Below, in pieces: positions 8,917 to 25,659 of a stretch of DNA of 64,000 nt (position 1 is the stretch's first letter; every line of letters starts with the position of its first letter). The position numbers and the translations under genes were made by a program. This stretch comes from Sulfobacillus acidophilus DSM 10332 (GTDB lineage Bacteria > Bacillota > Sulfobacillia > Sulfobacillales > Sulfobacillaceae), in contig CP003179.1 of NCBI GenBank assembly GCA_000237975.1, positions 1,674,001 to 1,738,000 on the forward strand, in the 5' to 3' direction. The notes under the pieces are model-generated. The model was not told where the DNA came from and ran no database searches. It saw nothing but the letters and a program-made list of their open reading frames with translations.

Positions 8917-10257
8917 TCATTCCGCCATCGGTTGGCGCCGCTGAGCAGTAGCGGCAAAGCCGAGTTCTTGACGGTATTTCGCCACGGTTCGTCTCGCCAT
9001 GGGGATTCCGAGCGCCGTCATTCGTTTGGCGATTTCGGCATCGGACAGCGGTGTATGCGGGTTTTCTTCAAGAATGAGATTGCGAATCAACGATTTTATC
9101 ATGTCAATGGAGGTGGTCTCCGCGACGCTCAAGGATTCGCATAACAATGACGAAATAGGGATTAATCCCCGCGGACATTGCAATATTTTTCCGGAAATAG
9201 CCCGTCGAACCGTGGATTCGTGTAATGCCGTCACGTGGGCTACGTCTTTAATGCTAAGCGGCTCTAGCGCATCGCGCTCAAAACAGTAACCCGCCTGGCG
9301 TTTGACAATGTAGGAGGTTACCGTCATCACGGTTTTCTGTCGTTGGCGCAGCGCTTGTTCGATCCATCGGGCTTCCGTAACGGCGCGCGACAAAAACTGC
9401 CTGGCTTGAGAATCCCGGACCGTCTTGGTCATCTGAAGATATTCCGTCACGTATTGTAGACGGGGATAAGCGTCCTGAGCCCAATCCAACGTAATGGTCC
9501 CGTGGGCGTCTTTTTGGGCGATGAGGTCGGGATAAAGATAGTGTGCCGGAGTCCGGGCGATCCTCCCGGATGCAGGAACAGGGTTTAATTTCCGTATGGC
9601 CTGAAGCAGACTATTTGCTTCGGCCGGGGATATTTTGAGCGTACGGGAAATCCGTGACAATGAGGGATGGCGTAAGACATCCCAGTGCTTCTGCAACAGT
9701 TCGGTTACCGGATGACGGAGACCGTACCGACGCGTCGCTTGTAACAACAAGCATTCCTGCAGGGACCGGGCGCCGACCCCTGCAGGATCACATGCTTGAA
9801 CCACCGCCAATGCCTGTTGCATTTCTTCGATAGACGCGCCGACGGTTTCGGCCAGTTCGGGCAAAGGGATTCTCAAGTATCCGTCGGGCTCCAGGTTTCC
9901 GACCAGATATAGCGCACTCTGCCGAAGCGATCCGGGGGGTGTACTCCAAAAGAGTTGTTCGGCTACTTCGTTATAGAGGTCGTGGCCACTGGGATCCGGA
10001 ATGTCCCAAGTCGACGCATCCTCTTCCCCGCCGTCTCCCCGGTGATAAGGGATACCGGAACGCCATTCGGGCGCTTGAACATCGGAATGGGCCAGTTCGA
10101 CGACGGGATTGGCCAGCACCAGCTCCTGCAGGTAGGAGCCGAGTTCCAGCACCGGCAGCTCTAGAATTTTGAGGGCGATTTTCATTGCCGGGGTCAACAC
10201 TAGCGCCTGCGATTGCGTCAACTGTTGTTCGAGCTTTTGTCCCACCCGGATCCCCAC
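8917..10257 (-). CDS. rpoN: RNA polymerase sigma-54 factor
   Basis: 446 aa, normal length. The N-terminal Gln/Leu-rich activator-interacting region starts QKLEQQLTQSQALVLTPAM. A core-binding domain follows at about residues 100-290. The C-terminus carries the RpoN box near residue 426 (ARRTVAKYRQEL; consensus ARRTVAKYRE), which reads the -24 element. The start is GTG 10257 or GTG 10245; the purine-rich AGAGGTGG overlaps the first and suits the second. It lies 36 nt after prmD on the same strand, which indicates cotranscription with the monooxygenase genes. Sigma-54 needs an AAA+ activator; one is encoded at 20172-22163, and -24/-12 promoters lie between the two operons. A sigma-54 gene inside its own target operon would give positive feedback. 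Confidence 0.95.
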   Translation of the reverse strand: MGIRVGQKLEQQLTQSQALVLTPAMKIALKILELPVLELGSYLQELVLANPVVELAHSDVQAPEWRSGIPYHRGDGGEEDASTWDIPDPSGHDLYNEVAEQLFWSTPPGSLRQSALYLVGNLEPDGYLRIPLPELAETVGASIEEMQQALAVVQACDPAGVGARSLQECLLLQATRRYGLRHPVTELLQKHWDVLRHPSLSRISRTLKISPAEANSLLQAIRKLNPVPASGRIARTPAHYLYPDLIAQKDAHGTITLDWAQDAYPRLQYVTEYLQMTKTVRDSQARQFLSRAVTEARWIEQALRQRQKTVMTVTSYIVKRQAGYCFERDALEPLSIKDVAHVTALHESTVRRAISGKILQCPRGLIPISSLLCESLSVAETTSIDMIKSLIRNLILEENPHTPLSDAEIAKRMTALGIPMARRTVAKYRQELGFAATAQRRQPMAE

Positions 10258-10293: not shown

Positions 10294-10623
10294 CTACTCC
10301 TCTTCGTATTGTAGAGCCTCTTCGAGATTTCCGAAAAGAACGACTTTATCGTCGAAGCGCACCATACGTCCGTAATGCGTCGATGTTTCCACTTCAAAGA
10401 GGGCTGGGGTCAACTGATAACCGAGCGCCTCGCTCAGTTCTTTCATATCGAACTCAAGCCGTCCTTCGCCATCAATCCGGATCATCGCAGGATAATACGT
10501 GACCGTGACATGGGGCTTTTTTGCCATCACTTCGGCAATTACCCGGCTTTCCACGCTGTCATTCAGCGTGACGCCGCATTTGTTGGAGATTTCCTGAGAC
10601 AGTTTGTCGGGCATCTTACTCAT
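10294..10623 (-). CDS. prmD: Monooxygenase coupling/regulatory protein (MmoB/DmpM family)
   Basis: 109 aa, the usual length. It belongs to the small cofactor-free effector family that binds the diiron hydroxylase and gates substrate and electron access. Recognisable segments are 'SVESRVIAEVMAKKP' and 'PAMIRIDGEGRLEFD', the family's helix-strand core. GGAGG lies 10 nt upstream. It follows prmC by 3 nt and precedes rpoN by 36 nt. Gene order A (large), B (reductase), C (small), D (coupling) is that of actinobacterial propane monooxygenases. Confidence 0.9.
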   Translation of the reverse strand: MSKMPDKLSQEISNKCGVTLNDSVESRVIAEVMAKKPHVTVTYYPAMIRIDGEGRLEFDMKELSEALGYQLTPALFEVETSTHYGRMVRFDDKVVLFGNLEEALQYEEE

Positions 10624-10626
10624 CAG

Positions 10627-11694
10627 TTACCGTCCTCCTTCGTCCTGAATCCCGATTTGTTCCAACAACGTGTCAACATGCTTCTGGGCCCGAGCGAAGG
10701 CGTCGGGAAAACCGTGCACCTTAACGCGCGGTAATGACCAAATCGGTTGGAGATTTTGCGCGGCCCGCGTCGCCATTGGCAAGTACCGGTGAGTCCATTC
10801 CAACAGCACACGTCGGTTGGTTTCCCCGTATGTGGGGTCGTCGGCCAACATCTGCATTAACGCCACCGTGTTGGCCATGTTACGTGCATAATCGGCTTCG
10901 GCTGCCGAGACGACCGTGGGCGTCAGAAAATCGCCGTGCCGGGCGGATACTTGCATCACGAAGCCGCTTCGGAACAATTCGAGGACCAGGGGCTCAATGA
11001 TGATGTTAATCGCAAAGTACTGCTCTAAATGATCCGTACTGGCCATGACCGTTTCGACCAATTCCCGGGTGGGTTGCCAAATGGGATCTTCAAGCCAATG
11101 CGTCTTGCCGGCGGATTCATCGAAGGGTTTTGTGAAGTCTGGCGCAATGTCGGCCAGATAGAGCGTAATATCCTGAGCGCACCGTAATTTGTACGACGCG
11201 TTGGTCAGGATCGAATTATTGATCATTTGGGTCATGCCGTCCCGCTGCCCACTCATTAAGGCGACACCGATTCCATATTCCGCGTGTTTGGAAGCACTGA
11301 CGTGGTCTTGAAGGATCTTGACCCAATCCGGATCAAACAGTGAGACCGCGTTTTGCGCTCGGGCATACGCAATGGCCTGTTCAATCATTTTGACAATGGC
11401 CGATTGGCGTTGATAATGCGGTCGTTCCCATTCTTCATCGGTGGCCCGGTACTGGTGCCAGTCGGATGATTGAAGGCGGGTACGGGTCGGCGAATAGGCG
11501 GGTGTGCCGTCGGCAAATGAAATAATCCAGCCTTGTAGCAGGTACCGGTTGGGGTCGGGTTGCACATCGACCGTGACATCCTCGTACAGGGTGGCCTTAC
11601 GCCCTTTCGGTTGGTAATAACGGTAGCGCCGGGAATCCCAGTCGACAAATTTCTTTGCCCCGGCTTCGGCCGAGCGTTCGACTATGCTCTCCAT
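10627..11694 (-). CDS. prmC: Alkane (propane-type) monooxygenase hydroxylase, small (beta) subunit
   Basis: 355 aa, full length. It has the ferritin-like fold of the beta subunits of soluble diiron monooxygenases. The family segment 'RRYRYYQPKGRKATLYEDVTVD' is near the start, and 'WERPHYQRQSAIVKMIEQAI' and 'DHVSASKHAEYGIGVALM' come further on. It lacks the diiron ligands, as expected for the subunit that holds the alpha subunit. The start ATG 11694 has AAGGAG 9 nt upstream. The first 36 nt of the gene and its ribosome-binding site are duplicated 532 bp upstream, so a second prmC start exists at 12226 but soon hits a stop. Confidence 0.92.
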   Translation of the reverse strand: MESIVERSAEAGAKKFVDWDSRRYRYYQPKGRKATLYEDVTVDVQPDPNRYLLQGWIISFADGTPAYSPTRTRLQSSDWHQYRATDEEWERPHYQRQSAIVKMIEQAIAYARAQNAVSLFDPDWVKILQDHVSASKHAEYGIGVALMSGQRDGMTQMINNSILTNASYKLRCAQDITLYLADIAPDFTKPFDESAGKTHWLEDPIWQPTRELVETVMASTDHLEQYFAINIIIEPLVLELFRSGFVMQVSARHGDFLTPTVVSAAEADYARNMANTVALMQMLADDPTYGETNRRVLLEWTHRYLPMATRAAQNLQPIWSLPRVKVHGFPDAFARAQKHVDTLLEQIGIQDEGGR

Positions 11695-12722
11695 GAGATC
11701 TCACTCCTTGGTTTTGGTTGGGGTTTCGATAGGTGCGGCCGCGTAAAATTTGTCGAAGTAGATGCGTTCCACGTCAACTCCCTTCATGCGAAGAACCGGG
11801 ATGACCGCATCAATGAGCGGGGGCGGACCACACACATGCGCATCGGCATTGGTTGCCCAGACAGGATCCAGACGCCTTTGGACGACTTCATGGATAAATC
11901 CGGGTTCGCCGGTCCAGTTGTGAGGCTCGTGGAGATGGGACAGTCCCGGAATCCACTCGAAATCCGTCAGCCGGCGACCGAGTTCTTGAATTTCGTCAAC
12001 GTAAAACAGGTCATTCGCCGTTCGACCTCCGTAAAAGAATCGAACCGGCCGGTCCTCTTGATGTTCAACCAGGTCTCGTAAGATGGAAAGCAACGGTGCC
12101 ATCCCTGATCCGCCTCCCACTAATACGAGCGGGCCGTCATTGGTTCGACGGCAGCAAATCCCGTAAGGACCGGTAACCCGTACCGGATCGCCCGGCTTCG
12201 GCCGAGCGTTCGACTATGCTCTCCATGAGATCTCACTCCTTGGTTTTGGTTGGGGTTTCGATAGGTGCGGCCGCGTAAAATTTGTCGAAGTAGATGCGTT
12301 CCACGTCAACTCCCTTCATGCGAAGAACCGGGATGACCGCATCAATGAGCGGGGGCGGACCACACACATGCGCATCGGCATTGGTTGCCCAGACAGGATC
12401 CAGACGCCTTTGGACGACTTCATGGATAAATCCGGGTTCGCCGGTCCAGTTGTGAGGCTCGTGGAGATGGGACAGTCCCGGAATCCACTCGAAATCCGTC
12501 AGCCGGCGACCGAGTTCTTGAATTTCGTCAACGTAAAACAGGTCATTCGCCGTTCGACCTCCGTAAAAGAATCGAACCGGCCGGTCCTCTTGATGTTCAA
12601 CCAGGTCTCGTAAGATGGAAAGCAACGGTGCCATCCCTGATCCGCCTCCCACTAATACGAGCGGGCCGTCATTGGTTCGACGGCAGCAAATCCCGTAAGG
12701 ACCGGTAACCCGTACCGGATCG
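11659..12722. repeat. Two tandem 532-bp direct repeats inside the prm operon
   Basis: Copies at 11659-12190 and 12191-12722. Each carries the first 36 nt of prmC, the prmC ribosome-binding site, and the last 490 nt of prmB. The 9-mer CCCGGCTTC occurs at the start of copy 1 (in prmC), at the junction, and just past copy 2 (in prmB). This fits a duplication by recombination or replication slippage at 9-bp microhomology. The copies appear identical by eye, so the event is recent or the repeat is being homogenised. Confidence 0.9.
11701..12190 (-). pseudogene. Truncated second copy of the reductase gene 3' end (prmB')
   Basis: This piece duplicates the last 163 codons of prmB (12233-12722), with the same protein sequence and no visible difference. 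It contains the NAD-binding half of the FNR domain (LVLVGGGSGMAPLLSIL) and the normal C-terminus, but lacks the ferredoxin and most of the FAD domain. It has no proper start: the ATG at 12226, copied from prmC, is in another frame and stops after 29 codons (12137). An internal ATG at 12120 could give 139 aa, but no good ribosome-binding site is seen. It is a by-product of a tandem duplication. Confidence 0.9.
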
Positions 12723-13288
12723 CCCGGCTTCAGCGCGGTGTCCAATAGCGACGAAAAAGCTCCGTCCGGGTAGACCTTAATGATGAATTCCAATTCCCGC
12801 GGTGAACTGGGCGTGCTGGCCATAGAATAAGAGCGGGTAATGCCATATTGCGTTAGGGACAAGTCGACATACTGGCCCGCGAAAAACTTCAATCCGGGCT
12901 CTTCGGCAAGATGAACACACAACCTTCGGATGTCATGCGTCAACGGCTCGATTTGGCTGACGGTTCCCGCGAAGTCTTTGACGGGAATAGCCAATTTCAG
13001 AATGTCCTCGTCATAATTTAACAGTTCTACGGTCAGGTCGCTGTAGGCCACAGTTCGGCACAAGAGGATATAGTCTTGGTCACGTTCATACTCTGGTAGC
13101 GCAAAGGTCGAGTAGCGCAACAAGTCGATGTCGCCGTCCAGCAAAATCGATTTACAGCTTGCGCACTGCCCTTCTTTACATCCGTGCATGAGCATGATGC
13201 CTTGCCGAAACGCGGCCTGAAGTAGTGTTTCGCCGTCTTCGACCTCCATTTCGATGCCGATCGGTTCTAAGCGCACGGTATATGACAT
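12233..13288 (-). CDS. prmB: Alkane monooxygenase NADH reductase (2Fe-2S/FAD)
   Basis: 351 aa, full length. The N-terminal plant-type ferredoxin domain (about residues 1-90) has the cluster Cys in 'GCKEGQCASCKS' and the fourth in 'YILLCRT'. The FAD-binding domain (about 100-200) contains 'RSYSMAS' (R-x-Y-S). The NAD domain (about 210-340) has 'VGGGSGMAP' and a C-terminal 'CGPPPLIDA' motif. It passes electrons from NADH to the diiron hydroxylase. GGGAGGAG lies upstream of the ATG. The spacing to prmA (54 nt) contains a hairpin. Confidence 0.93.
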   Translation of the reverse strand: MSYTVRLEPIGIEMEVEDGETLLQAAFRQGIMLMHGCKEGQCASCKSILLDGDIDLLRYSTFALPEYERDQDYILLCRTVAYSDLTVELLNYDEDILKLAIPVKDFAGTVSQIEPLTHDIRRLCVHLAEEPGLKFFAGQYVDLSLTQYGITRSYSMASTPSSPRELEFIIKVYPDGAFSSLLDTALKPGDPVRVTGPYGICCRRTNDGPLVLVGGGSGMAPLLSILRDLVEHQEDRPVRFFYGGRTANDLFYVDEIQELGRRLTDFEWIPGLSHLHEPHNWTGEPGFIHEVVQRRLDPVWATNADAHVCGPPPLIDAVIPVLRMKGVDVERIYFDKFYAAAPIETPTKTKE

Positions 13289-13342: not shown

Positions 13343-14998
13343 TCAAATCTTGTGAACCGTGAACCCTTTGCGGTAGGCCGCCAGATGTTGGTCCCGCTCG
13401 GAGGGCGTCATGCTGCGCAAATCAAGTAACGGGCTACGCAGCTCGTACCCTTTCACATCGTCGAGTGTCCACATTTTAGCGTCGTCAAACTCCAGATGGG
13501 GTTGAGGAATGAGGGTTTTGCCGTCGGTTCGGACAAACCCGAGATCCTTAATCACGTCGGCCAAATCCCATCCGTGATAGACCTCTTCCCACTGCCGTCG
13601 ACCACTGAACCGCCCCATGGCAGGGGTCGGTCGACCCTCATATTCATTGGCAAACGCGACCTTATGGGTCCATCGGCACTGTTCCGAACAATAGGTGTAG
13701 AGCTGCCCGTCGACTTCATCCACCACCATGTCCTCGCGGATGAGGCAAGGGACTAGACAGCTCCAGCACCGGTGGGGATAGACGTAGCCGGTATCGGCAA
13801 ACACGATCGGGGTATTGCCGGGAGTGGATAATTTCCGGTAATTTTCCCACCAGGCCCCAAACTTGTTGTACCATCCGGGATACTTGTATTCGAACCATTC
13901 GAAGTCCCGTTCATCTAAGGGGTCGATCCGCCAGAAGTTCACTGGCCAGCCGGCCGAGAAAAATTGGGCGACATAATGGACGTAATCCTTTTTGATAATG
14001 CGATCCCAGGCCGCTTGGACGTCGTCATGATGAATTTTTAGCCCGTACTTCTCCAACGGCAAGAGATAGCTCCGGTAATAATCGTCAAAGATCCACCGTT
14101 GCCAAAGTTCCGCGTACGATTCTTTGTCTTTGCGCCGGTCTTTGGTGCCGTATTCAATAATGGTCCCGATGGCGGCATCGACGATAGCGTGGTTTTGCCA
14201 AAAGGCATAGCGGATATCGCGTTCCAGCAATAAATGATTGTCCGGATCATTAAGAACCGCCATTAACGTCGAATGGCCATTTCCGATATGCCGGGATTCG
14301 TCGGACTGTACGGACAAAAACACCGTGGGTAGCGCGTAGTCGCCGTTTCGTGCGGCTTCCGACGGCATGGCGACGAATAAGGTGTTGGTAAACGCCGTTT
14401 CCGCGACGACCTGCAAATAGATGTTGGTGGCGGTGATGGCGTCGCCGGTAATAAACCCTTCACCAAATTGGCGGCCAATCGTCGTGGCATAACACTTGCC
14501 GAACGCGGCTTCGGTAATGTCGAAGCCGGCGGGGTCAATGTAGTTCTCCATGTACCACTTTTTCAGGTTCATTTGGATCGTCGAATGTCGCATCTCATCG
14601 ATCATTTGCAGCGTATAACCGGTTCGCAAGTCGTGCCCGGGGACCACATTGGCTTCGATGGCCATCGACCGGGCGGCCGAAATTTCCGGAAACGGAATGA
14701 TCGCCAAAAAGAGTTTCATCCATTCAATCCAACGCGGTTCGACGTTACGAAACATGTTGCCGCGAAGGCCGGCATCCAAAGCTCCATAGACCCGGTTGTC
14801 TTTTTCTTCCTGCATGGGAAAGTAGGATCGCAGCACCTGCTTCATGGGATCCTTGGGGGCCTTAACGAATTTATAGTCGGTCGGATACTTTAACGAATCT
14901 TGGGCATAACTTGGCAGCCACCCTAAATCGGCGATTCGCCTTGTGGCTTCAGCCAAGGATATACCACGTTGAGCCGTAATTTTCGGTAACGTTGCCAT
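13343..14998 (-). CDS. prmA: Alkane (propane-type) monooxygenase hydroxylase, large (alpha) subunit, diiron
   Basis: 551 aa from ATG 14998, chosen because AAAGGAGG lies 7 nt upstream; an ATG 33 nt earlier has no such site. It is the catalytic subunit of a soluble diiron monooxygenase. All six ligands are visible with the right spacing: Glu105 (FPEIS), Glu135 and His138 (DEMRH), Glu200 (VAETAF), Glu234 and His237 (DESRH). The 30- and 34-residue gaps match methane monooxygenase. A C-terminal Cys cluster (HRCWSCLVPC ... YCSEQC) is the YHS-like metal site of this subgroup. Gene order prmABCD plus a GroEL, ADH, amidohydrolase and DUF59 partner set points to the propane/MimA-like group. The substrate is probably a short alkane or a ketone/phenol; sequence alone cannot settle it. 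It is the first gene of the operon, about 60 nt after the predicted sigma-54 start site. Confidence 0.92.
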   Translation of the reverse strand: MATLPKITAQRGISLAEATRRIADLGWLPSYAQDSLKYPTDYKFVKAPKDPMKQVLRSYFPMQEEKDNRVYGALDAGLRGNMFRNVEPRWIEWMKLFLAIIPFPEISAARSMAIEANVVPGHDLRTGYTLQMIDEMRHSTIQMNLKKWYMENYIDPAGFDITEAAFGKCYATTIGRQFGEGFITGDAITATNIYLQVVAETAFTNTLFVAMPSEAARNGDYALPTVFLSVQSDESRHIGNGHSTLMAVLNDPDNHLLLERDIRYAFWQNHAIVDAAIGTIIEYGTKDRRKDKESYAELWQRWIFDDYYRSYLLPLEKYGLKIHHDDVQAAWDRIIKKDYVHYVAQFFSAGWPVNFWRIDPLDERDFEWFEYKYPGWYNKFGAWWENYRKLSTPGNTPIVFADTGYVYPHRCWSCLVPCLIREDMVVDEVDGQLYTYCSEQCRWTHKVAFANEYEGRPTPAMGRFSGRRQWEEVYHGWDLADVIKDLGFVRTDGKTLIPQPHLEFDDAKMWTLDDVKGYELRSPLLDLRSMTPSERDQHLAAYRKGFTVHKI

Positions 14999-15070: not shown

Positions 15071-15088
15071 AAGCGTGTTTCATGCCAA
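15071..15088 (-). promoter_or_regulatory. Sigma-54 (-24/-12) promoter of the prmABCD-rpoN operon
   Basis: On the - strand the site reads TTGGCATGAAACACGCTT, with GG and GC separated by exactly 10 nt, as in the consensus TGGCACG-N4-TTGC. Predicted transcription starts about 12 nt past the GC, giving a leader of about 60 nt to prmA. The match to the -24 element is very good; the -12 element keeps the key GC but not the preceding TT. It differs from the facing promoter by one base in 18. Confidence 0.8.
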
Positions 15089-15192
15089 GTGGTGAGAAGC
15101 CAGGCAAACGCCAAAGATCATAGGTAACCCTTAGCTTTTGGGTTAGACGAAAAAATCTTGAAGCGGCGCCGGTGTAGCAGATCGCCAAAGGC

Positions 15193-15209
15193 TTTTGCAA
15201 GATGCAACA
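15193..15209. promoter_or_regulatory. Candidate activator-binding dyad 1 (UAS)
   Basis: TTTTGCA-AGA-TGCAACA, an inverted repeat of the form TGTTGCA-N3-TGCAACA with one mismatch. It lies about 105-135 bp upstream of the - strand sigma-54 promoter, a normal distance for an enhancer. A second copy lies at 15342-15358. Confidence 0.55.
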
Positions 15210-15341
15210 CACAGGATTTTCCCCGTTATTCGTCCGTTTCCGCATGTTTTTTGGGAGTCTGTTTTAGACTGCCAATTGCGATAAATGTGATTTTAAATAA
15301 TAATAAGGAATTACTACCAGATTTAGGCTCGTTTCTGAGCT

Positions 15342-15358
15342 TGTCGCACAATGCAACA
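15342..15358. promoter_or_regulatory. Candidate activator-binding dyad 2 (UAS)
   Basis: TGTCGCA-CAA-TGCAACA, the same dyad as at 15193-15209 with one mismatch in the left arm. It lies about 95-110 bp upstream of the + strand sigma-54 promoter. The two copies are 149 bp apart in the same orientation. A perfect 12-bp palindrome CGGTTGCAACCG at 15368-15379 shares the TTGCAA core and may be a third half-strength site. Confidence 0.55.
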
Positions 15359-15451
15359 GGTCAATCCCGGTTGCAACCGATTGTCGGGTGTATCGTCTGA
15401 ATTTCTTCGTATAAAACGGTAAACAAGATGAAAAACGGTAGTTTTAACGAG

Positions 15452-15469
15452 TTGGCATGAAACGCGCTT
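15452..15469 (+). promoter_or_regulatory. Sigma-54 (-24/-12) promoter of the amidohydrolase-ADH-groEL operon
   Basis: Reads TTGGCATGAAACGCGCTT, with GG (15454-15455) and GC (15466-15467) 10 nt apart. Predicted start is near 15479, about 70 nt before the first ATG. It has 17 of 18 bases in common with the facing - strand promoter. Confidence 0.8.
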
Positions 15470-15550: not shown

Positions 15551-16582
15551 ATGTACAAGACGAAAGATGGCGACGAAGTATTTATCGTTGACGGACATGT
15601 TGCTTTGTGGGATGGCAGTCCCGCCAATCAAAAGAATCGGCATGGGGGCGAATTTATCGATTGTTTCTACGATTACCATCGTAACCTCAGTCCTCAGGAA
15701 TACTTGTGGCCGCATGAGAAGTTCGTCAAATACGACGAGGAAACGTTTGTGCGGGATGTTTTCGAGCAAGGATACGTGGACGTGGCCATTTTTCAACCGG
15801 TGGGATTGATCGATTTTTACCGTGAACCCTTTGGCAACGTTGCCAAAAATTATGCCTTTGCGGAAAAATATCCGGGTCGTTTCGTTGGTAACGGGTATTT
15901 CGATCCGCGGGACGGCGAGGAGGGGCTAGAACGTTTGGAAGAATGGGCCAAGAAATATCATCTGCAAGGGGTCAAACTCTATACGGCCGAATGGAACGGC
16001 AGTTCGCGAGGTTATCAGTTAACCGATCCGTGGGCCCAACGCTATCTCGCCAAGTGTCTTCAATTAGGCATTCGTAATATTCACGTGCACAAAGGCCCCA
16101 CCATTAAACCCTTAAATATGGATGCGTTTGATGTGGGCGATATTGACGATGCGGCTAGCGCTTTTCCGGAATTAAACTTCATTGTGGAACATGTCGGGCT
16201 GCCTCGGTTGGAGAAGTTTTGCTGGATTGCCACCCAAGAGCCCAATGTTTATGCTGGACTGGCCGTCGCCAACGCCTTTATTTATACCCGACCGCGCTAT
16301 TTCGCCCAGATTCTTAGTGAGTTGCTCTATTGGCTGAACGAAGACCGGATCCTCTTCGGTAGCGACTATGCGTTGTGGCATCCCAAGTGGCTCATCGATA
16401 TGTTTATGGCGTTCGAATTCCCTGAAGATATCGTGAAGGAAACGGGCATTCAGTTAACGCTGGACATCAAGAAAAAGATCCTCGGACTCAACGCGGCACG
16501 GTTGTATAACATTGACGTCACCGCGCGGAGCGAACAACTCAAAAAAGACGTCATCAGTCAACGGTTAAGTCAGGTCAGTTAA
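15551..16582 (+). CDS. Amidohydrolase-2 family metal-dependent hydrolase
   Basis: 343 aa from ATG 15551, with AGGGGGG upstream; an earlier in-frame ATG at 15509 has no such site. It has the TIM-barrel amidohydrolase-2 signature: a His near the start ('VDGHVALWDG'), 'GVKLYT' Lys region, 'IHVHKG' His, 'FIVEHVG' His and 'ILFGSDY' Asp. Members act as hydrolases or decarboxylases. Genes of this type sit in propane monooxygenase clusters of mycobacteria and Gordonia, and there the exact role is unsettled; metal loading or a hydrolytic step has been considered. First gene of the + operon, followed 13 nt later by the DUF59 gene. Confidence 0.85.
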   Translation: MYKTKDGDEVFIVDGHVALWDGSPANQKNRHGGEFIDCFYDYHRNLSPQEYLWPHEKFVKYDEETFVRDVFEQGYVDVAIFQPVGLIDFYREPFGNVAKNYAFAEKYPGRFVGNGYFDPRDGEEGLERLEEWAKKYHLQGVKLYTAEWNGSSRGYQLTDPWAQRYLAKCLQLGIRNIHVHKGPTIKPLNMDAFDVGDIDDAASAFPELNFIVEHVGLPRLEKFCWIATQEPNVYAGLAVANAFIYTRPRYFAQILSELLYWLNEDRILFGSDYALWHPKWLIDMFMAFEFPEDIVKETGIQLTLDIKKKILGLNAARLYNIDVTARSEQLKKDVISQRLSQVS

Positions 16583-16595
16583 GGGGTCCTGTTCG

Positions 16596-17327
16596 ATGAA
16601 AACGACTGAACAACGGATAGCCGACGTATGGGCAAAGCTGGACCAGGTCATGGATCCCGAACTGGATCAGTCGGTCCGTGAACTCGGATTTATCTCGGAC
16701 GTTACGGTGCTTGACGGGCAGGTGTCGATTGCCCTTCGCTTGCCCACGTATTGGTGTTCGCCCAATTTCTCGTACATGATGATGGAAGATATGCGCCAAG
16801 CGGTACGGTCGTTGCCGTGGGTCGAGTCTATACGGCTACGCTTGCTGGATCATGAGAGTGCCGACGCCCTGAACGAAGGAATCGAACAGGAAAAGACGTT
16901 TCAACAGATTTTTCCTGATGCGACCGGCGACTTGGGTGCCTTACGACGGCAGTTCAAGGAGAAGGCGTTTTACGGGCGGCAAAAACGGCTGTTGGATCGT
17001 TTATCGCTTCAGGGTGTAGAGCTGGCCCGCTGGGTTCCTGGAAAATGGCAAGATGTCCGCTTTCTGGTCCAGGTTTCTTTGGAGGATCGTGTGGCACTGG
17101 AACGCTACGAGGACATCGTGAGCTATTGGGGTCTTCCCCAAAGTGATTCCGACCCGGTCGTGATCCGGCATGACGGCACACCCGTGACCGAATCCGGCTG
17201 GACGCGACATTGGCATCAATTACGGTTGGTCTCTCTTAATATGGAAGCCAATACGCATATTTGTCGGGGGCTATTGCAGGTTCGGTATGCGCCCGACGAG
17301 GTTGGTTCAATCCGTCTTCCCCAGTGA
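16596..17327 (+). CDS. DUF59/MIP18-family N-terminal domain protein of the monooxygenase cluster
   Basis: 243 aa. Residues 1-85 are a DUF59-type domain ('VWAKLDQVMDPELDQSVRELGFISDV'; P-E-L-D-x-S-x-x-E-L-G). This family (SufT, PaaD, MIP18) helps insert Fe-S clusters or other metals into target enzymes. The C-terminal two thirds are not recognised, but they contain His/Cys clusters ('TRHWHQLRLVSLNMEANTHICRG'). In propane monooxygenase clusters a similar gene accompanies prmABCD, so iron delivery to the diiron site or to the reductase cluster is a fair inference. Confidence 0.75.
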   Translation: MKTTEQRIADVWAKLDQVMDPELDQSVRELGFISDVTVLDGQVSIALRLPTYWCSPNFSYMMMEDMRQAVRSLPWVESIRLRLLDHESADALNEGIEQEKTFQQIFPDATGDLGALRRQFKEKAFYGRQKRLLDRLSLQGVELARWVPGKWQDVRFLVQVSLEDRVALERYEDIVSYWGLPQSDSDPVVIRHDGTPVTESGWTRHWHQLRLVSLNMEANTHICRGLLQVRYAPDEVGSIRLPQ

Positions 17328-17393: not shown

Positions 17394-18425
17394 ATGAAAG
17401 CCGGACGTATTCATGCATATCACGAACCGATTCACATCGACGACATTAATGAGCCGCGGATCGAAAAAGACACTGACGTGATTGTGAAAATCGGCGGCGC
17501 AGGGGTATGCCGGACCGATTTGCATATCATCGAAGGGATCTGGAAGGACGCGCTCGGGAACCCTCCCCTTCCCTACACCATCGGTCACGAAAATGCCGGA
17601 TGGATCGAAGCGGTCGGATCCGGGATAACCCATTTGAAAAAAGGCGATCCCGTTATTTTGCATCCCTTAATGTCTTGCGGCCTTTGTCCTGCGTGTCGGG
17701 CGGGACGCGACATGTACTGCACCCAAGGGCATTTTCCGGGATTGGACGGGACCGACGGCGGTTATGCCGAATACCTCAAGACGTCGGTGCGCTCGGTAAT
17801 CCCTTTAGCGCCCGGCACCGATCCGGTCCCGTTGGCCCCCTTTGCCGACGCCGGCATTACGGCCTATCATGCGGTCAAAAAATTGGTGCCTTTAACCGCT
17901 CCGGGTACTACCGTGGCTGTCATCGGCATTGGCGGATTGGGGCATTTCGCCGTACAGATTTTACGGGCATTGACCCCCGCCACGGTGATCGCAATCGATA
18001 CCCAATCGCAGCGACTGGACTTTGCTACGGAAATCGGTGCGCACCATGCGGTCTTGGCAGGATCGGACGGCGGGGTCGGCGGGGTTAAACGGATCGCTCC
18101 GAACGGCGTAGACATCGTCATTGATTTTGTGGGGGAACATCAAACCCCGGCCGCCGGAGTCAACATGTTGGCCAAGGGGGGTACCTATTCTGTCGTCGGC
18201 TACGGCGGTGAAGTCCAAGTGCCGACATTGGAGTTTGTCAACCGGGAAATCAATATCGTGGGTAATTTGGTCGGGACCTACAATGAGCTGGCAGAACTGA
18301 TGGAACTCAACCGTCAAGGAAAGGTAGTGATATCGGCCCAACAATTTCCTTTGGCCGATGCCCCACAGGTGATGGAGATGCTGGATCGCGGAGAAATCAA
18401 AGGGCGGGCTATCCTGATCCCATAA
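17394..18425 (+). CDS. Zinc-dependent NAD(P) alcohol dehydrogenase
   Basis: 343 aa from ATG 17394; AAGGAG lies upstream. Medium-chain dehydrogenase family: catalytic zinc ligands Cys/His in 'GVCRTDLHI' and 'GHENAGW', and structural zinc Cys in 'SCGLCPACRAGRDMYC'. The Rossmann motif is 'VIGIGGLGHFAVQIL' near residue 180. It would oxidise the alcohol formed by the monooxygenase (1- or 2-propanol). ADH genes in the same position are known in actinobacterial prm/mim clusters. Confidence 0.9.
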   Translation: MKAGRIHAYHEPIHIDDINEPRIEKDTDVIVKIGGAGVCRTDLHIIEGIWKDALGNPPLPYTIGHENAGWIEAVGSGITHLKKGDPVILHPLMSCGLCPACRAGRDMYCTQGHFPGLDGTDGGYAEYLKTSVRSVIPLAPGTDPVPLAPFADAGITAYHAVKKLVPLTAPGTTVAVIGIGGLGHFAVQILRALTPATVIAIDTQSQRLDFATEIGAHHAVLAGSDGGVGGVKRIAPNGVDIVIDFVGEHQTPAAGVNMLAKGGTYSVVGYGGEVQVPTLEFVNREINIVGNLVGTYNELAELMELNRQGKVVISAQQFPLADAPQVMEMLDRGEIKGRAILIP

Positions 18426-20108
<1,683 letters not shown>

Positions 20109-20171
20109 ACGGGACGAATCACGGGCATGGGGATTTGCTTGAAGGCTTTAACAGGAAGGAGGATGCCGGGA

Positions 20172-22163
20172 ATGCGGAGTGACCTGATGGTGCGACCGGT
20201 TCACGAGGGGATTCATCAGGCCGTTAACGAAACCGAACTGGCGTGGCGCCAGTTTGTTGTAGCGGGTGAACGGCGTCATGTACCGGGACGGCCGTTTGTG
20301 CTGGAGTCCTGGATCCGATGCGCGCAAAAAGGCATAGAACCGGGAGTCAGTGCTGCGCAGAAGATTCTTTCCGAATCAACCGTGAACGAGTTATGGGCCA
20401 GTCATATGCTGCACGAGAACATCGATCCCTATATTCAGTCGTTAACCGACACGATGATGCCGTCCCGGCATCTGGTGGTTTTTACCGATGCCCAAGGGTT
20501 TATCTTAAAAATCTCGGGCGAATCCTCCGTCCGGCAATTGGCGGAAAACATGAATTTTGTCCCCGGTTCCAATTGGTTTGAAGATCAAGCCGGGACCAAC
20601 GCGATCGGCACCTGTCTGGCTTTGGGCGCTCCGGTGCAAATTTTTGCCGCCGAACACTATTGCGCCCCGGTTCATCCTTGGACGTGCAGCGCCGCGCCGA
20701 TTCGGGATCCGGCCACCCACGAAATCTTGGGGGTTATTGATCTGACCGGTCTTCGCGAATATCATCATCCCCATTCGCTGGCCGTGGTACAGTCCATTGC
20801 GCGGGCTATCGAAGATCGGTTGCGCGATACGTTGGAAATCGAACGCTTCACCATTTTCGGCGATTATTTGGAGCTTGCTACCCGTTATCCGGAAACCTTA
20901 CTCATTGCGCTTGACCGGGGCCATCAAGTCATTCGCTGTTCCTCGGCGGTCTGGGAGCACGGCTGGGTCGATTCGAACAATCAACTGTTGCATTTACCGC
21001 CGGAGTTCTCCCGGCTGGCCGACGGCAGCAGCTGGGAAGTCGACGGCAGTCACCAGCGGTGGAAGTGGATTTTGCATCACTGTTATCGTCAACATCAACG
21101 GGTCGGGGCAATTATTCAGGCGGTGCCGACCGGAGTTCAGGGACGCAACCGGTCGTTACCGGCCGGGAAAGGAAGAGGTGTCGGGAAGGATGACAATCCC
21201 GTGGCGACCATAAGCTTTAACAACTTGGTGGGCAATTCGCCCAAATTTCTCGACGCCGTCAACCAGGCGCGGGCGGTTGCCCGATCGGATGCGCCGGTAT
21301 TGATTTTAGGGGAAACCGGCACCGGCAAGGAACTGATGGCCCAAGCCATTCATTCGGCCAGTCGTTATGCGGCGGGCCCGTTTGTCGCCGTCAATTGTGG
21401 CGCGATTCCGCACGAATTGATTGGCAGCGAGCTATTTGGTTTTGAAGGCGGCTCGTTTACCGGAGCCGCCAAAGAGGGTCGACCGGGCAAATTTGAACTG
21501 GCCGACGGCGGAACCATTTTCTTAGACGAAATTGGCGAATTGCCGTTGGCGTTACAACCTTATTTGCTTCGCGTGCTGGATCTGGGGGAAGTGACCCGAA
21601 TTGGGGGTCAATCCCCTTTCCGGTTGAACGTGCGGGTCATCGCGGCAACCAACCAAGATCTCGAAACCATGGTGGAAAACGGAACATTCCGGCGAGATCT
21701 GTACTATCGGTTAAACGTGATCGCAATTGTCTTACCGCCCATTCGGGAGCGTCCGGGTGACGCCATTCGGCTGTTGGAACATTTCGTGACCCGAATTGCA
21801 CAAAAAACCGGGCGTCCGGTCCCGCCGATATCCCCCGCCCTGTCGGTCGCGTTGGATCGGTACCCGTGGCGAGGAAATGTTCGGGAAATCCGGAATCTCG
21901 CCGAACGGATCATGGCCGCATTGCCGGTCGACGGCACCGTGACGATAAAGGCGTTGCCTGACGCTTTTCGTCAAGCGGACCCCGAGATGAACCTGCTCAC
22001 CCCGGATTCAGGATTGCGTCAACAAGAGATCGATTGGATTCGACACGTGCTTGAGGAGTGTCATGGGAACATTTCGCTGGCGGCTAAGCGATTGGGCATT
22101 CACCGGAGTACGTTGTACCGTAAACTTTCAACAGCCGATCGGCGGCAAAACCCGTCGCGTTGA
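20172..22163 (+). CDS. Sigma-54-dependent activator, AcoR/MimR type (GAF - AAA+ - Fis HTH)
   Basis: 663 aa from ATG 20172, placed by AGGAGG 9 nt upstream. The N-terminal part has an AcoR-like region ('LESWIRCAQKGIEPG') and a GAF domain (about 70-210, with 'GSNWFEDQAGTNAIGTCLA'). The AAA+ domain (about 355-590) has Walker A 'GETGTGKEL', Walker B 'GGTIFLDEIGEL', and a loop reading GSFTGA rather than the usual GAFTGA. The Fis-type HTH is at the end ('NISLAAKRLGIHRSTLYRKL'). It should bind the dyads in the 15-kb spacer and drive both sigma-54 promoters when a substrate or product binds the GAF domain. It is a member of the operon it is expected to control. Confidence 0.9.
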   Translation: MRSDLMVRPVHEGIHQAVNETELAWRQFVVAGERRHVPGRPFVLESWIRCAQKGIEPGVSAAQKILSESTVNELWASHMLHENIDPYIQSLTDTMMPSRHLVVFTDAQGFILKISGESSVRQLAENMNFVPGSNWFEDQAGTNAIGTCLALGAPVQIFAAEHYCAPVHPWTCSAAPIRDPATHEILGVIDLTGLREYHHPHSLAVVQSIARAIEDRLRDTLEIERFTIFGDYLELATRYPETLLIALDRGHQVIRCSSAVWEHGWVDSNNQLLHLPPEFSRLADGSSWEVDGSHQRWKWILHHCYRQHQRVGAIIQAVPTGVQGRNRSLPAGKGRGVGKDDNPVATISFNNLVGNSPKFLDAVNQARAVARSDAPVLILGETGTGKELMAQAIHSASRYAAGPFVAVNCGAIPHELIGSELFGFEGGSFTGAAKEGRPGKFELADGGTIFLDEIGELPLALQPYLLRVLDLGEVTRIGGQSPFRLNVRVIAATNQDLETMVENGTFRRDLYYRLNVIAIVLPPIRERPGDAIRLLEHFVTRIAQKTGRPVPPISPALSVALDRYPWRGNVREIRNLAERIMAALPVDGTVTIKALPDAFRQADPEMNLLTPDSGLRQQEIDWIRHVLEECHGNISLAAKRLGIHRSTLYRKLSTADRRQNPSR

Positions 22164-24304: not shown

Positions 24305-25659
24305 GTGTGTAAAAGTTCCCTTGGTTCGGAATGCGTTACGCGACCGATGTGGCTTCCGATTGCGAGGGTTCCTCTGCTGCCCCGGCCGACCGTTTCGCCT
24401 GCCAGTAGGATTCGAGGTTCAGGTACCGCGGGCCCGTGGTCCACGCCTCGTGCTGCTCCAGTAACAGCGCCCCTAAGAGGCGGATGGCGGAATCCCGGTT
24501 CGGAAAGATCCGAATTACCCGTTCCCGGCGCCGAATTTCCGCATTGAGCCGTTCAACGCCATTCGTGGTGCGCAATCGGATCCGTAACGGTTCCGGTAAT
24601 TGTAAGACGGCCAGGGCGTCCTCCAGCCCCTCCTCCAACCGCGTCAACGCCCGTCCGGCCCGCTCTTCAAAGTCCTGCACGATCTTCTTCCATAACGTGT
24701 CGACGGTGGCCCGGTCCGGGGCTTCGAAGAGGGACCGAAGGCGCCCGTGCAGTTCCTTTTGCACCGATTTCGGGGCCGCGTCCAGCACATTCCGCGTGAG
24801 GTGGGTTTGGCACCGCTGCCAACGGGCGCCTTGAAAGTGTTGGTCGATCGCCTTGCGCAGCCCGCGATGGTCATCGGAGACCACCAGATCGACGCCGGTT
24901 AACCCCCGATCTTTCAGGTCGGTAAACACGGTGGACCATGTCTGCTGAGATTCGCTGTCCCCGATCCAGAACCCCAGAATTTCCCGATACCCTGCGGCAT
25001 TAATGCCGGTCACCACACACCCGCTCCGGGGCCGCACGGCCCCGTGTTCGCGGATTTTCAGCACCAAGGCGTCGACGATGAGGAACGGGTAGGGGGTCTC
25101 GGCCAGGGACCGCGTCCGCCATTGCTTTACGGCCGCGTCGAGACCTTTCGCCAACTCGGATACGGTGGACTTAGAAAATTCCGTGCCACAGAGCTCTTCG
25201 GTGACCCGTCGGATTTTGCGGGTGGACACCCCATTCACCACCATTTCCATCAACGTTAACACGAGGGCTTTTTCGTGACGCTGATAGCGATCAAAGAGCG
25301 CGGGACTGAACTCGCCGTCCCGCGTGCGCGGGACGTCCAGCGTCAACGTGCCGACGCGCGTCGTCAACTGCCGGCTGCGGTAGCCATTCCGATATCCTTG
25401 CCGCCCTTCGGTCCGCTCATACCGGTCGGCTTGGAGGTATTCGGCCACTTCGGCATCTAACACCTGATTTAAGACCTGTTGCAATAACTGAGCCAGCGCC
25501 TGATCTTTTTGCTCGACAAGGGCTTGGATTGTTTGAGCATCCAGCGTAATCTGATAGTGAGCCATTGCGTCATCCTCCGGGAGATTTGTGGGTTTTGTCG
25601 CTTTCAAATCTACCAAGGGAACCCAATGGCTCCTAAATCTTTAAGCCCTTTTTACACAC
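24305..25659 (-). mobile_element. IS256-family insertion sequence A
   Basis: About 1355 bp. Ends were placed at GTGTGTAAAA (24305-24314) and its inverted copy ending ACACAC (25659). Beyond 10 bp the two ends differ. I found no target-site duplication: the flanks are CCTAATTT on the left and TATACTGG on the right. It encodes one - strand transposase and sits inside the G1 peptidase pseudogene. Confidence 0.65.
24336..25565 (-). CDS. IS256-family transposase (element A)
   Basis: 409 aa from ATG 25565 (GGAGG upstream; an in-frame ATG 51 nt earlier is less well placed). Mutator-type DDE transposase: N-terminal 'YLQADRYERTEGRQGYRNGYRSRQL', catalytic Asp in 'FLIVDALVLKIRE' and 'LVVSDDHRGL', and Glu in 'TTNGVERLNAEIRRR'. 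It is intact and of normal length, so the element may still move. Confidence 0.9.
   Translation of the reverse strand: MAHYQITLDAQTIQALVEQKDQALAQLLQQVLNQVLDAEVAEYLQADRYERTEGRQGYRNGYRSRQLTTRVGTLTLDVPRTRDGEFSPALFDRYQRHEKALVLTLMEMVVNGVSTRKIRRVTEELCGTEFSKSTVSELAKGLDAAVKQWRTRSLAETPYPFLIVDALVLKIREHGAVRPRSGCVVTGINAAGYREILGFWIGDSESQQTWSTVFTDLKDRGLTGVDLVVSDDHRGLRKAIDQHFQGARWQRCQTHLTRNVLDAAPKSVQKELHGRLRSLFEAPDRATVDTLWKKIVQDFEERAGRALTRLEEGLEDALAVLQLPEPLRIRLRTTNGVERLNAEIRRRERVIRIFPNRDSAIRLLGALLLEQHEAWTTGPRYLNLESYWQAKRSAGAAEEPSQSEATSVA

Follow-up and report, generated by a model that had tools for sequence, protein, structure and literature searches.

A divergent pair of predicted sigma-54 promoters as the control region of a probable self-amplifying propane/acetone module in Sulfobacillus acidophilus

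Results

The window analysed here (the whole stretch of 64,000 nucleotides) contains two divergent operons. On the minus strand, Pfam matches and synteny identify a cluster in A-B-C-D order that encodes the large hydroxylase subunit of a di-iron monooxygenase (prmA, 13343-14995; Phenol_Hydrox, 2.8e-57), the monooxygenase reductase (prmB, 12233-13288; Fer2, FAD_binding_6 and NAD_binding_1), the small hydroxylase subunit (prmC, 10627-11694; Phenol_Hydrox, 4.3e-73) and the coupling protein (prmD, 10294-10623; MmoB_DmpM, 6e-27). PrmA is 91-94% identical to its counterparts in Sulfobacillus-type relatives, and prmABCD is best taken as a propane monooxygenase cluster, the substrate being putative. 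The last gene of this left operon, which starts 36 bp past prmD in the same orientation, is rpoN (8917-10257, minus strand); its product scores 326 bits with TIGR02395, above the cut-off, and has an intact RpoN box (ARRTVAKYR). The right operon, on the plus strand, begins with an amidohydrolase gene (15551-16582; Amidohydro_2, start chosen by homology), followed by genes for a DUF59/FeS_assembly_P protein (16596-17327; PF01883), a zinc-type alcohol dehydrogenase (17394-18425; NCBIfam alcohol dehydrogenase families) and a GroEL-like chaperonin (18474-20108; Cpn60_TCP1, and PRK12849 with 528 bits). Its last gene (20127-22163) encodes an AcoR-type sigma-54 activator with a GAF domain, an AAA+ domain carrying GSFTGA and a Fis HTH (Pfam Sigma54_activat, 7.6e-68, GAF and HTH_8). 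The original prediction had proposed joint sigma-54 control of both operons, which stands, but it overlooked rpoN and the activator gene as their distal genes.

Some other features of this DNA were also recorded. A perfectly identical direct repeat of 541 bp (11659-12199 and 12191-12731, offset 532 bp) doubles the 3' part of prmB; as a result, prmB and prmC are separated by an orphan reductase C-terminus of 139 codons (11701-12120). Relatives lack this insert, and the repeat may reflect either an assembly artefact or a tandem duplication that happened recently in this genome. An ORF at 24336-25616, past the end of the right operon, was recognised by eye, from its translation only, as a mutator-type (IS256-like) transposase. 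Elsewhere in the same genome there are two further distant PrmA relatives (28-29% identity; G000:C1:2963310-2969006), suggesting that other di-iron monooxygenases exist outside the prm cluster.

The spacer between prmA and the amidohydrolase gene carries two predicted -24/-12 promoter sequences, TTGGCATGAAACACGCTT at 15071-15088 on the minus strand, ahead of prmABCD-rpoN, and TTGGCATGAAACGCGCTT at 15452-15469 on the plus strand, ahead of the amidohydrolase-to-activator operon. As predicted, these 18-mers differ in one base (17/18 identity, with coordinates and strands correctly assigned), both have the GG-N10-GC arrangement, and they face outward, the left one toward prmA and the right one toward the amidohydrolase gene. 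The ATG of prmA (14995, minus strand) lies about 80 bp past the -12 GC of the left promoter, and that of the amidohydrolase gene (15551, plus strand) about 83 bp past the -12 GC of the right one. Both sites show a TGGCAYG-N4-YTGCW-like frame, with GG and GC ten bases apart, and each matches the sigma-54 consensus YTGGCACG-N4-TTGCW in 10/13 positions. When the 555-bp spacer was shuffled under a dinucleotide model, an opposite-strand GG-N10-GC pair with 17/18 identity was obtained in none of 3000 shuffles (the maximum was 15), and matches of at least 10/13 on both strands appeared in 0.2% of them. A matrix built from relatives only gave the two sites the highest scores of the 64-kb window, 25.6 and 25.4 bits, against 14.6 for the next site. 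The genome scan for the 18-mer that had been proposed as a check covered 3,557,831 bp in 2 contigs, and in this 3.56 Mb genome the sole matches with 0-2 mismatches were the two sites at the prm spacer; at 3 mismatches there were four matches elsewhere, the same level as the three of a reversed-pattern control. A chance origin of the pair is ruled out by the shuffles and the whole-genome searches. A looser TGGCAYGNNNNNYGCTT pattern with one mismatch allowed gave 54 matches versus 75 in its control and was uninformative.

An enhancer-like palindrome, TGTYGCA-N3-TGCRACA, was found upstream of the promoters, at 106-128 bp in the family loci. In the window, the palindrome of the prm promoter (TTTTGCA-AGA-TGCAACA, 15194-15210, no strand) is centred 128 bp from the prm -12 element, and that of the right promoter (TGTCGCA-CAA-TGCAACA, 15343-15359, no strand) 116 bp from the right -12 element. 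The exact sequence TGTYGCANNNTGCRACA occurs in this genome at 15343-15359 alone, 15194-15210 being one mismatch off. Across the family, the right-side palindrome lies 114-128 bp from the -12 element in all loci and the left-side one 106-128 bp from it in those where it was recognised; for the left palindrome of G006 no site rose above the cut-off. These candidate activator sites fall within the range of about 80-200 bp upstream that is expected for sigma-54 promoters, and their owner could be a different regulator.

Eight prm loci of the family were compared, namely those of the window, G006, G007, G020, G021, G026 (two) and G033; the Sulfobacillus-type loci found via PrmA (L035-L039) are identical in DNA to five of them. 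In all complete loci AcoR-GroEL-ADH-DUF59-Amid diverges from PrmA-B-C-D-RpoN in this order, with rpoN and the activator gene near their own operons and co-oriented with them. Exactly one family-type promoter was present on each spacer strand in 8/8 loci, with a start-to-start spacing of 375-396 bp in seven of them and of 339 bp in G021. G026 has two full prm loci (L130 and L131), each with its own rpoN, activator gene and promoter pair, and one of these copies has the promoters and the protein identities of the G020 locus, which suggests transfer. Since the G020 locus and that copy share promoters and spacer length, the eight loci contain seven distinct promoter pairs. This conservation, the paired enhancer-like sites and the linked rpoN and activator genes strongly support the prediction that the twins are sigma-54 promoters that would fire divergently and control both operons together.

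The likeness of the twins had been attributed either to duplication or to strong selection on the whole element. The promoters of the family share an extended consensus, HTGGCAYBAARNNYGCTK, and among the 14 promoters of the seven distinct loci TTGGCA (first T in 10/14), a spacer AAA and GCT are common, with variation at positions 7-8, 12-14 and 18. Selection is therefore borne out for TTGGCA, AAA and GCT, near invariant in the family, but not for the whole element, as positions 12-14 and 18 drift. With regard to duplication, a recent local inverted copy or a gene conversion event would account for the near identity, and several observations point that way: 17/18 twins occur in two loci, those of the window and G006, with sequences that differ between these genomes; the within-locus identity averages 14.86/18, and that of permuted pairs 14.12 (p = 0.054), so that twins of one locus match each other slightly better at best; and the flanks downstream of the 18-mers are mildly raised in identity (23/60 versus 14.9 expected, sd 3.3). 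However, the upstream flanks are no more alike than unrelated sequences (21/80 identical versus 19.8 expected), the twins of the other loci match in only 13-15/18 positions, and both promoters are present at every related locus, which indicates that the pair is old. Moreover, prm-side and amidohydrolase-side promoters of different species are as alike as orthologues. We thus abandoned the proposal of a recent duplication of the promoter region and regard such an origin as highly improbable, with a small residual chance for gene conversion. Because the within-locus excess is weak and the flanks are largely unrelated, the near identity is read mostly as the family-wide extended consensus, with both sites held to the preference that one local RpoN would have, rather than as the trace of a recent copy.

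The genome of the window has a single rpoN and a single full-length match to the Sigma54_activat domain, four other matches to this domain being weak and partial (35-56 bits). Among 34 family genomes, prmA (>90% identity) was present in seven and rpoN in the same seven, with none in the 27 others; were the genomes independent, which they are not, only 1 in 5.4 million arrangements would give this co-occurrence, a probability of about 2e-7. In these counts, the rpoN of G021 is cut off at a contig end, and the prm contig of G033 ends within prmA, the rpoN counted for G033 being a different one, from a second set. Full-strength activator domains number one per prm locus, two in G026 like its rpoN genes, with a second one in G033; in G001 such a domain lies on a 3.2-kb contig, prmA being absent from the assembly. 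Of the ten proteins encoded in the cluster, RpoN has diverged most, with a mean identity of 41% as compared with 93% for PrmA, 56% for the GroEL-like protein and 44.5% for DUF59 (in this comparison the AcoR mean is distorted by a 7-residue G020 fragment). Despite this divergence, the cluster RpoNs keep the RpoN box and the HTH, and the prm-linked RpoNs form one clade (support 95/92). The cluster activators keep GSFTGA, as in the window, or GAFTGA.

One sigma-54 serves several activators in most bacteria (PMC12316311), and this RpoN might likewise serve the species as a general housekeeping sigma factor that has further targets and happens to be encoded beside prm; six extra single matches to the family consensus in prm-bearing relatives would fit such a role. 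Those matches were nevertheless rejected as promoters, as they have no nearby palindrome and lie mostly within long open frames, a test that discriminates poorly given that true promoters also lie in long frames. Against a housekeeping role, too, the genome of the window has no such extra match: the family consensus matches the two prm-spacer sites only, and a wider regulon in this genome was discarded. Each carrier has one full-length activator-domain match per prm locus (the second set of G033 excepted), and the family members without prm are also without rpoN. All this makes a general role improbable and favours a dedicated sigma factor.

Sigma-54 genes beside other catabolic genes were seen at two loci. 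In G033 (L133, G033:C444, 4820-10586), a second, highly divergent sigma-54 gene, in whose product no activator-interacting domain was recognised, adjoins genes for an AcoR-type activator, an acetone carboxylase gamma subunit and an AMP-binding (acetyl-CoA-synthetase-like) enzyme, and this is possibly another private sigma-54 module, for acetone. In another family of the order (L134, G041:C46, 4469-12387), rpoN lies between genes for a luciferase-like monooxygenase and an alcohol dehydrogenase, with a divergent gene for an AcoR-type activator; with it, three kinds of catabolic cluster would have a sigma-54 of their own.

Discussion

From the observed sites and their geometry, conservation, gene order, genome-wide uniqueness and the co-distribution of rpoN with prmA, we believe that the spacer very probably controls a dedicated, self-contained and self-amplifying module in which sigma-54 governs propane/acetone metabolism. 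Both outward promoters would be occupied by RNA polymerase carrying the RpoN that the cluster itself encodes. A pathway metabolite, the presumed inducer, would probably be sensed by the GAF domain of the AcoR-type activator, which would bind the palindromes lying about 105-130 bp ahead of the two promoters and drive open-complex formation at both. Both promoters would then be active and RpoN-dependent, and read-through would reach the distal genes, rpoN at the left and the activator gene at the right. As sigma factor and activator would thus be made from the very operons that they switch on, induction is expected to raise the level of both, and the module is probably autocatalytic.

A simpler circuit is also conceivable, in which the twin promoters are genuine, yet most expression of rpoN and the activator gene comes from separate constitutive promoters, making the locus an activator-controlled divergon with no feedback loop. 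The first cells to meet the substrate would need basal RpoN and activator, and this purpose is served in Rhodobacter capsulatus by a weak constitutive promoter before rpoN (PMC6925177); the gap between prmD and the rpoN match, about 60-140 bp in relatives, would leave room for one. In the window, however, this gap is only 36 bp, and a consensus scan for sigma-A-like promoters before rpoN or the activator gene, with a consensus not calibrated to this host, gave chance-level sites only. The co-orientation of rpoN and the activator gene with their operons, and their closeness to them in all complete loci, also speak for read-through. We therefore hold the constitutive circuit to be possible but the less probable one, and prefer the self-amplifying module, in which a basal promoter before rpoN may exist as well, by analogy with R. 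capsulatus.

The nearest parallel is the autoactivated nifU2-rpoN superoperon of R. capsulatus (Cullen et al. 1994, as set out in PMC6925177), in which an activator-dependent promoter is complemented by a weak constitutive one ahead of rpoN. There too a pathway-linked rpoN lies downstream in an operon dependent on sigma-54 and its activator. That case nevertheless concerns an alphaproteobacterium and its nitrogen fixation; the constitutive second promoter is known there, and the nifA genes lie elsewhere under NtrC control, whereas the window holds a hydrocarbon pathway of Bacillota, with the activator in the mirror operon and a second promoter not evident. Lactobacillus plantarum uses sigma-54 with a single activator for its mannose PTS (cited in PMC3162934); it resembles the present case in being Gram-positive and in pairing its only sigma-54 with one activator for a very small regulon, but differs in serving sugar transport and in the class of activator.

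Closer in gene content are prm/mim clusters found in both Proteobacteria and Bacillota, which share with the window the monooxygenase genes, the GroEL-like chaperonin and the AcoR-type activator. In 69/80 loci, a -24/-12 match of at least 10/13 was found within 600 bp upstream of prmA, a match on either strand being expected by chance in about 9% of shuffles of the window's spacer, and sigma-54 control of prmA thus appears to be widespread. Strong matches on both strands upstream of prmA were also noted in several Azospirillum loci (L072, L075, L078-L080, L083 and L084). Two Bacillus-type loci (L070 and L073) are like the window in their divergent amidohydrolase gene and prmA and in having a -24/-12 site on each strand, but their promoter sequences are of the TTGGCACATTAATTGCAT type; rpoN was not detected in the examined stretches of either, that of L070 ending soon after prmD. 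Presence of rpoN within the cluster was observed only for Sulfobacillus-type loci (it was not detected in the other 75 prm loci examined, some of which end early), and most other prm/mim loci differ in gene order. Our literature search found no description of a Sulfobacillus propane monooxygenase or sigma-54, nor of a twin-operon sigma-54 arrangement. Two features are new as far as that search shows: sigma factor and activator each stand at the far end of one of two mirror operons, and rpoN is restricted, throughout the family, to such clusters.

Sigma-54 is usually regarded as a shared, slowly evolving global factor. In the module described here, the sigma factor is joined with its activator, promoters and pathway in what looks like a single transferable unit, in which RpoN diverges fastest of the cluster. 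Sigma factor and promoters may co-evolve fast, perhaps because nothing else would depend on them, and the joint evolution of a sigma factor and a regulon of two promoters can be tested directly. The module would also explain how a sigma-54-dependent pathway can run in a family otherwise without rpoN, and it could serve as a compact inducible cassette for gene expression in moderate thermophiles or acidophiles. Taking into account the genome with two modules (G026) and the one that combines a propane module with a different sigma-54/activator pair by an acetone carboxylase gene (G033), we lean, by a modest margin of confidence, toward a broader proposal for the Sulfobacillus family: sigma-54 would exist there solely as cargo carried by catabolic clusters, each a private, mobile and self-amplifying module with its own sigma-54, activator and twin promoters.
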